Assembly (NCBI GenBank): GCA_001604275.1
Contig: LVBD01000041.1
Coordinates: 1 to 64,000 of the forward strand
Origin: Spirochaetales bacterium Spiro_02
GTDB lineage: Bacteria; Spirochaetota; Spirochaetia; Sphaerochaetales; Sphaerochaetaceae
Direction: 5' to 3'
DNA: 64,000 bases
Part shown: positions 22,731 to 24,358 of the stretch, piece by piece
Layout of the letters: each line of letters starts with the position of its first letter
How positions within the stretch are numbered: position 1 is the first letter of the stretch
Position numbers and translations under genes: made by a program
Notes under the pieces: generated by a model
Database searches by the model: none
Told to the model about the DNA's origin: nothing
The model's input: only the letters and a program-made list of their open reading frames with translations

Positions 22731-23165
22731 TCAGAATACCGCCACCCCCTTTCCAAGTTCCTGACAGGCTACCAATGCGGGCGCATCGGGCATTTCCTGA
22801 CAGATCAGACCTTGGTCGTCGTATAGTACAGCGCCATCGGAGACGCACCTGGAGACCCAATCGCGCATCCATGCGCCGTCTCCCCAGCCGTATGAACCGA
22901 ACAACGCAAGCTTCCGACCCTTCAGAGAAGGTTCAAGAGCGGTGAAGAACGGTTCGAAATCTGCTTCCTCAAGGACCTCGTCACCCATTGCGGGACAACC
23001 GAGGACAAGGACATCGCCCTCCAAAGCCTGAGCAGTACTTGCTTCAGTCACCGGCAGCAACTTTACGGACGCACCGGCTTCCTTCGCACCATCCATGATG
23101 GCTTCGGCCATAGCCTGGGTGTTGCCAGTCAGACTATGATAAACGATGACGACTGTATTCATCAT
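22731..23165 (-). CDS. Flavodoxin, short-chain
   Basis: The 144-residue protein opens VVIVYHSLTGNTQAMAEAI, with the canonical FMN-phosphate loop S-L-T-G-N-T. The regions LGCPAMGDEVLEEADFEPF and LFGSYGWGDGAWMRDW provide the two isoalloxazine loops. Flavodoxins replace ferredoxin as low-potential carriers, often under iron shortage. It lies 29 bases downstream of a DUF3793 gene and the pair is preceded by a promoter overlapped by an 18-bp palindrome. Two adjacent ATG codons (23165, 23162) are both possible starts. Confidence 0.95.
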   Translation of the reverse strand: MMNTVVIVYHSLTGNTQAMAEAIMDGAKEAGASVKLLPVTEASTAQALEGDVLVLGCPAMGDEVLEEADFEPFFTALEPSLKGRKLALFGSYGWGDGAWMRDWVSRCVSDGAVLYDDQGLICQEMPDAPALVACQELGKGVAVF

Positions 23166-23194
23166 GCATCTCCTCTCTCATAACAAGATATGTA

Positions 23195-23758
23195 TCAAGC
23201 TATCTCCTTCAATATCTCTTCAAAGGAGAGTCCCGATTCAATCAAACCTCGGACCCGTAGGCGACAGCGGTCATACCAATCGAATAGCTTCACCGCCTCC
23301 TTCTCGTCCGAATACACTTTCCAATACCGGCAGAGCTTATAGCCCTTTCCACCACGCCTTTCAAATTCCAGCACGTCCTGTAGCGGATAGCCGAGGAACA
23401 CGCCGATCTCATGGGGAACGGTCATAGTCTTCCTGTATCGTTCCAACAACGCATCTACCATCGAATCCATTCCCGATGCAACGTCATATCCCTTGCCGAC
23501 GAGAAAACCAAGCACGCCTGGAGCTCCCAGAAAGGCTGCGAGCATCCAACGATGATAGATGAACAAGGTCACATGATGCTCGCATCGGCATACTTCTCGT
23601 AGCACACATCCCTGCCGCAACAGTTTTCGTCGTAGCGCATCCAATGCGTCGTCAACAGAATCCCGATCATATTCGCAACACGAAATGATCGAAGCAGGTT
23701 TCGCCTTGCCGAGCACCGTTGCGCAATGGACAAGAATCAGTTTTTCAAGCCTGTGCAT
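23195..23758 (-). CDS. DUF3793 family protein
   Basis: The 187-residue protein matches the DUF3793 pattern from memory: an N-terminal domain with HCATVLGKAKPASIISC, a C-x-C pair (CRCEHH) and a conserved C-terminal block VPHEIGVFLGYPLQDVLEFERRGGK then YWKVYSDE. The biochemical role is not known; in many anaerobes the gene stands next to flavodoxin or iron-transport genes, which fits the flavodoxin directly downstream here. Cys-rich (seven Cys), no signal peptide, presumably cytoplasmic. It is the first gene after the promoter with the palindromic site. Confidence 0.85.
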   Translation of the reverse strand: MHRLEKLILVHCATVLGKAKPASIISCCEYDRDSVDDALDALRRKLLRQGCVLREVCRCEHHVTLFIYHRWMLAAFLGAPGVLGFLVGKGYDVASGMDSMVDALLERYRKTMTVPHEIGVFLGYPLQDVLEFERRGGKGYKLCRYWKVYSDEKEAVKLFDWYDRCRLRVRGLIESGLSFEEILKEIA

Positions 23759-24123: not shown

Positions 24124-24152
24124 TTGACCGTTCGTGCATTTGGCCCTATAGT
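24124..24152 (+). promoter_or_regulatory. Strong promoter of the tandem anticodon-loop RNA
   Basis: TTGACC (24124-24129), exactly 17 bases, TATAGT (24147-24152), preceded by phased T-tracts (T5, T4, T6, T7) resembling the UP elements of stable-RNA promoters. The predicted start is at 24158-24160, immediately before the first hairpin. Confidence 0.85.
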
Positions 24153-24157
24153 GTAAT

Positions 24158-24302
24158 TACGTTGGTTGGGCTGGAAATCAGAATCCGACTCCGACACATG
24201 GTTGCAAACCGTGTTGAATGCGTCGGCTGAAAATCGGCGGATACTTCTGGACTGTAAATCTAGAAGAAGAAACGCTTCGACTCCAAATCGGGGCGTTTTT
24301 TT
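24158..24302 (+). ncRNA. Small RNA made of five tandem anticodon stem-loop mimics
   Basis: Five hairpins in a row each carry a 7-base loop of tRNA anticodon form. (1) loop 24171-24177 CTGGAAA, anticodon GGA (Ser), inner stem 4 of 5 pairs with a G-A mismatch, outer stem 24161-24165/24185-24189. (2) loop 24202-24208 TTGCAAA, GCA (Cys), 6-bp stem. (3) loop 24227-24233 CTGAAAA, GAA (Phe), 6-bp stem. (4) loop 24252-24258 CTGTAAA, GUA (Tyr), 8-bp stem. (5) loop 24281-24287 CTCCAAA, CCA (Trp), 11-bp stem ending in T7. Every loop has U33, A36, A37 and A38, and every stem a G30-C40 pair. No acceptor, D or T arm exists, so this is not a tRNA array. It has its own promoter and terminator and encodes no likely peptide. 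Function is unknown; a decoy or sensor for enzymes that read anticodon loops is inferred. An alternative fold pairs 24191-24195 with 24222-24226 and competes with hairpin 3. Confidence 0.85.
24270..24302 (+). terminator. Intrinsic terminator formed by the fifth (Trp-like) hairpin
   Basis: AAACGC plus the 5-bp anticodon-like stem TTCGA pair with TCGGG plus GCGTTT, giving 11 pairs (two G-U) around CTCCAAA, followed directly by a T-run to 24302. The terminator loop is thus itself a Trp anticodon loop. Confidence 0.85.
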
Positions 24303-24358
24303 ATGGCTCAGTGCAAAATTTTAGAAAAAAAGAAATGTGTGTTAAGCCGACAGACATG

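Follow-up and report, generated by a model that had tools for sequence, protein, structure and literature searches.

The 64,000-nucleotide stretch of DNA analyzed here (the window) comes from Spirochaetales bacterium Spiro_02, a member of the Sphaerochaetaceae, whose array-bearing members are free-living spirochaetes, and contains an intergenic array of hairpins at positions 24158-24302 of the forward strand. The gene upstream encodes a DUF3793 protein (Pfam PF12672; 23195-23758, reverse strand) and is divergent from the array, and the gene downstream encodes a DUF1848 protein (Pfam PF08902; 24359-25288, reverse strand) and is convergent with it. This arrangement of the neighbors implies that the array is a free-standing transcription unit; since the DUF1848 gene is convergent, the array RNA is not a leader of that gene. 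Consistent with a unit of this kind, a promoter scan identifies a putative sigma70-type promoter, TTGACC-17-TATAGT (24124-24152, forward strand; 10 of 12 consensus matches), whose position would place the transcription start near 24158-24160, at the first element, a consensus-based rather than a mapped assignment. The proposed small RNA of ~145 nt (24158-24303, forward strand) requires no open reading frame and would carry five elements that resemble tRNA anticodon arms, the last of which appears to double as its intrinsic terminator. A flavodoxin and DUF3793 gene pair (22731-23758) adjoins the array, and genes for a GGDEF protein and for IspG, the latter 3 kb from the array, lie farther upstream.

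The loops of the five elements start at 24171 (CTGGAAA), 24202 (TTGCAAA), 24227 (CTGAAAA), 24252 (CTGTAAA) and 24281 (CTCCAAA), exactly as read in the initial annotation of this DNA. That annotation described five hairpins, which holds for elements 2 to 5, whose 7-nt loops are flanked by unbroken stems of 6, 6, 8 and 11 bp, respectively. On the forward strand, element 2 (24196-24214) reads ACATGG-TTGCAAA-CCGTGT, element 3 (24221-24239) starts CGTCGG around its CTGAAAA loop, element 4 spans 24244-24266, and element 5 (24270-24302) overlaps and runs into seven T residues (24296-24302). Element 1 (24169-24179, forward strand) fits in sequence (core GG-CTGGAAA-TC) but has a weak stem of 2 bp followed by a G-A mismatch, and ensemble folding of the transcript predicts no anticodon-type stem for it. 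In the same calculation elements 2, 4 and 5 are dominant (>0.9) and element 3 is a minority form (~0.1); a few elements of other arrays are likewise not the dominant fold. The folding of the array region nevertheless beats that of all 200 dinucleotide-shuffled sequences (z -3.2). Across the whole window, a YTNNAAA loop on a stem of at least 5 bp occurs four times on the forward strand, in every case inside the array locus, and once on the reverse strand, outside it. A Poisson estimate of ~3e-10 for four such hairpins in 145 nt is indicative only, the loop pattern having been picked after the locus was viewed, but the design recurs in other genomes, where it was found once the pattern had been set on the window locus.

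A BLASTN search with the window locus against 60 relatives returned no homologue, just short chance matches, as expected if loops and pairing alone are kept. Our first array finder instead required three cores in tandem, at a spacing tighter than tRNA genes permit, and other arrays were found through further pattern searches, a conserved neighboring gene and a covariance model. Arrays of two to eight elements are present in nine Sphaerochaetaceae genomes of three genera, counting the window host with its five elements. The longest, in genome G066, has eight or more elements and is ended by the end of the contig; those of G130, G002 and G137 have four elements each, and those of G022, G127, G036 and G146 two each. 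The covariance model, R2, was trained on the four two-element RNAs alone and detected the arrays of G130, G137 and G002, each of four elements (E values 2.7e-8 to 1.2e-5) and, also unaided, the G066 locus (2.7e-8 to 4e-3 for all four), along with single-terminator look-alikes. All seven arrays with readable upstream DNA, including that of the window, have a TTG-17-TATAGT or TATCAT promoter sequence, at a matching position with respect to the elements. Related genomes contain homologues of the array in which the loops are fixed and the stems compensate, which is the outcome of a test that the initial annotation had set beforehand, and its view of the array as a real RNA gene built of consecutive anticodon stem-loop mimics is borne out by these homologues, their conserved loops and their paired but variable stems. 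That the array represents a genuine RNA family is very probable.

Conservation and pairing were counted over the 32 complete elements of the nine genomes, which share the core consensus G30-A31-C32-U33-N34-N35-A36-A37-A38-U39-C40. Positions G30, U33, A36, A37 and A38 are invariant; C32, U39 and C40 are each present in 31 of the 32 elements and A31 in 29, and positions 34-35 take all bases. The stem is constrained in pairing rather than in sequence. Pair 27:43 is standard in 31/32 elements against 13.9 in shuffles, pair 28:42 in 29/32 against 14.0, and pair 29:41 in 30/32 against 22.3, and many types of pair are represented, as many as six. Kinship of the sequences inflates these counts, yet elements within a single RNA differ and still pair. 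Each of the five pairs of the stem is formed in 91-100% of elements, and pairing then drops at 26:44 to 21/32 (66%; 13/24 in internal elements), which delimits a five-pair anticodon stem like that of tRNA, maintained in the arrays by covariation.

In the seven Sphaerochaeta-type loci the array ends with a long hairpin formed by its last element, and in all loci but G066 the stem of this element is longer and GC-rich, as expected of a terminator. Given that this element is a terminator, and that a few single terminators (L275, L276) have loops of the same type, the elements might be taken for a DNA-level repeat, or for terminators or other ordinary hairpins, whose common loop style is a coincidence. 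We regard this as very improbable: the internal elements have no T run, such a loop occurs in just 2 of 46 terminators in 417 kb of family DNA, both of them picked by the search model, and a DNA operator would have no need of stems that vary in sequence yet pair. The single hairpins L275, L276 and L283, with loops CTAGAAA, CTCAAAA and CTGCAAA, lie behind protein genes in G064, G020 and G131, and two of the three are terminators. The resemblance of the cores to real anticodon arms could also suggest the remnant of a tRNA gene cluster, but this explanation is refuted, and its probability is close to nil: acceptor, D and T arms are absent, the elements are spaced at 25-55 nt, some anticodons belong to no tRNA, the stems are unlike those of the host tRNAs, and pairing is under selection. 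With no tRNA gene match at the locus, the initial annotation was right to call it neither a tRNA cluster nor a remnant.

The same annotation had read the five loops as Ser, Cys, Phe, Tyr and Trp anticodons, and this reading is not supported. Positions 34-35 are free, the elements include the anticodons CUA and AGA, neither of which any host tRNA has, and the GGA loop assigned to tRNA-Ser is CTGGAAA where that of the host tRNA-Ser(GGA) is TTGGAAG; anticodon identity is therefore not under selection. Position 34 does avoid U, which is found in 1 of the 32 elements (G 22, C 6, A 3). The host tRNA-Ser(GGA) (G000:C31), with G38 in its loop, places the tRNA that reads UCC and UCU outside the A36A37A38 rule, and the E. 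coli tRNA-Ser(GGA) likewise does not carry i6A37 (PMC7200024).

Among the 42 distinct anticodon arms of the host, exactly eight have A36A37A38: those of the tRNAs for Cys, Leu (CAA and UAA), Phe, Ser (CGA and UGA), Trp and Tyr. Positions G30, C32, U33 and C40 are common to all eight arms and the arrays. The conserved signature of the arrays matches this class of host tRNA and no other, and the class is that of the substrates of MiaA, the enzyme of i6A37 formation. MiaA-type enzymes recognize the conserved sequence A36-A37-A38 (PMC7200024, PMC10644310), which occurs in an anticodon-type stem-loop, as in MiaA substrates, in 32/32 elements; synthetic isolated anticodon stem-loops suffice as in vitro substrates for the human MiaA homologue (PMC4046958). 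The host has miaB and a MiaA close to enzymes with solved structures. The miaA gene is present in the host and in 60 of 61 relatives and is so nearly universal that its presence does not discriminate.

A general tRNA enzyme would not fix A36 and a codon-specific target would fix positions 34-35, which makes MiaA or MiaB the simplest partner. We suggest, with a probability of about 0.4, that the RNA acts in trans and titrates MiaA or the enzyme that follows it, MiaB, as a multivalent decoy or an alternative substrate. It would present the anticodon arm of tRNAs for U-starting codons in several copies, and the determinants of MiaA, namely U33, A36-A37-A38 and a short paired stem, would be offered by each hairpin. 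Once made, it would bind MiaA or MiaB, and perhaps be modified, in competition with the eight A36A37A38 tRNAs, lowering or delaying i6A37 or ms2i6A37 on these tRNAs and so altering the decoding of UNN codons. With more than one site on each molecule, it could be an efficient titrator, in the manner of the CsrB and RsmZ RNAs. The steps of transcription, binding, titration and altered decoding are inferred. Counting against a role for MiaA are the avoidance of U34, the elements (1, 3 and a few others) that are not the dominant fold, and the fact that none of the arrays lies beside miaA or miaB. Of the eight A36A37A38 tRNAs in the host, two have U34, against the array bias, and the specificity of MiaA offers no explanation for its avoidance.

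The full substrate signature in every element would also suit RNAs in which i6A or ms2i6A is itself the point. The hairpins might carry the modification as a report of isoprenoid, iron or methionine status, or their stability or their binding to another partner might depend on it. U39, at a usual site of pseudouridine, is part of that signature, and the window array has the flavodoxin and DUF3793 genes as neighbors and ispG at a distance of 3 kb. In other genomes, however, the neighbors differ, and a search for a conserved sequence that could mark a partner gave none; we judge this explanation unlikely. The target could also be another enzyme of the same loops, the pseudouridine synthase RluA or TruA (which acts at positions 38-40), an option to which U39 in 31/32 elements lends itself. 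RluA has the consensus UUXXAAA and reads U33 and A36, on which it depends, but it also needs U32 (PMC7822408), and this target base is replaced by C in 31/32 elements, although an unreactive decoy is still conceivable. TruA modifies many tRNAs that lack A36 and would place no constraint on that base. A role for either synthase therefore seems improbable.

The decoy for MiaA or MiaB would have to act in trans, and the genomic setting of the arrays fits this. In each of three different contexts they are solitary units flanked by convergent or divergent genes. Both the window and the Sphaerochaeta-type genomes have a convergent gene downstream, and a tRNA gene is next in G066; no array lies upstream of a co-oriented regulated gene, as a cis leader such as a T-box or an attenuator would. 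In the Sphaerochaeta-type genomes the array is divergent from one conserved gene, which has no Pfam or NCBIfam match, and occupies one chromosomal locus throughout. Multivalent copies of tRNA loops would also serve as bait that guards tRNAs from a ribonuclease cutting in the anticodon loop (a VapC-type toxin, an anticodon nuclease or a colicin), and toxin-neutralizing repeat RNAs exist in type III toxin-antitoxin systems. Such a nuclease would, however, need to read A36A37A38 and ignore 34-35, a toxin gene adjoining the array is absent in all three contexts, the array keeps its one chromosomal locus across the Sphaerochaeta-type genomes, and no array was found in the viral contigs searched. 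We consider protection from a nuclease unlikely.

Samples of 393 genomes from the phylum and 395 from the class contained no array outside the family, the strings matched in G542 and G384 being simple tandem repeats. Scanning 84,980 species genomes with the three-core pattern gave at least 117 stretches; among the matches listed, when stems were required to be paired and to differ, the diverse arrays left were the Sphaerochaetaceae loci, and the other listed stretches were near-identical tandem repeats, coding repeats or chance. In searches of viral contigs 10 and 3 stretches matched, none of them a diverse array. One viral contig has degenerate tRNA-like fragments clustered at and around L266:1557-1616. 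An acidobacterial run of six near-identical hairpins, GGCGA-YTRGAAA-TCGCC (L147, reverse strand, ~1376-1511), has similar loops on constant stems and is probably unrelated to the arrays.

A close functional likeness is to CsrB, CsrC and RsmZ, small intergenic sponge RNAs whose numerous hairpins each display the motif found in the true targets of a single protein, in a copy number that differs between species (PMC5027483 and, in part, general knowledge). By analogy the array may work like a Csr/Rsm sponge, but it does not belong to the Csr/Rsm family: its motif is the tRNA anticodon arm with A36A37A38, not GGA in the loop, and GGA lies in the paired stem (29-31) and is missing from several elements. 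Anticodon-arm mimics outside tRNA are also known, the thrS operator being one that lies in an mRNA and is bound by a tRNA enzyme. For another anticodon mimic, binding by a synthetase is described (PMC6542539). Such mimics occur singly, in cis, in the mRNA of one synthetase and have a fixed anticodon, whereas the arrays form a free RNA with two to eight copies in which 34-35 are free. With tRNA (RF00005) and tmRNA the arrays share anticodon-arm sequence and a five-pair stem (28:42 in 29/32 and 27:43 in 31/32 elements), together with the seven-base loop and U33 (32/32), but they have none of the three other arms, score below the covariance-model cut-off and are matched neither by Rfam nor by ARAGORN. 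Type III toxin-antitoxin RNAs (ToxI) are likewise non-coding RNAs of tandem units, but the units of the arrays are not identical repeats and no toxin gene lies directly downstream in any of the three contexts. On these grounds the CsrA-sponge, generic-terminator, tRNA-remnant and leader assignments were all set aside.

No family of Rfam 15 matches the locus at gathering score, with weak chance matches at most, and the literature searched contains neither a description of tandem anticodon-arm mimics nor a report of MiaA titrated by any RNA. As far as Rfam and the papers searched allow, a free RNA in which anticodon arms follow one another in tandem while the anticodon itself is free is new, and a conserved RNA made of tRNA anticodon arms alone would be so even if its partner is another protein. 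To our knowledge, the control of bacterial tRNA modification levels is largely an open matter, the known control lying in enzyme level, substrate and iron supply. It is possible, if somewhat doubtful, that the arrays constitute a new class of bacterial non-coding RNA in which tandem anticodon-arm mimics titrate an A37-modifying enzyme and control a group of tRNAs at once. A mimic of the modified part of the tRNA set would then provide direct RNA-based control of tRNA modification state, and the cell would have a switch for decoding all U-starting codons.

Some of the array loci show further features. The spacer between the two elements in G022, G127, G036 and G146, GTTGGTGTGTTGGTAAC, is identical in all four genomes and may be a further functional site. 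In G002 an insertion sequence (DDE_Tnp_1; L224:5017-6906) lies between the conserved neighboring gene and the four-element array, and ~65 bases that include the promoter region are present on both sides of it (L229, L080).
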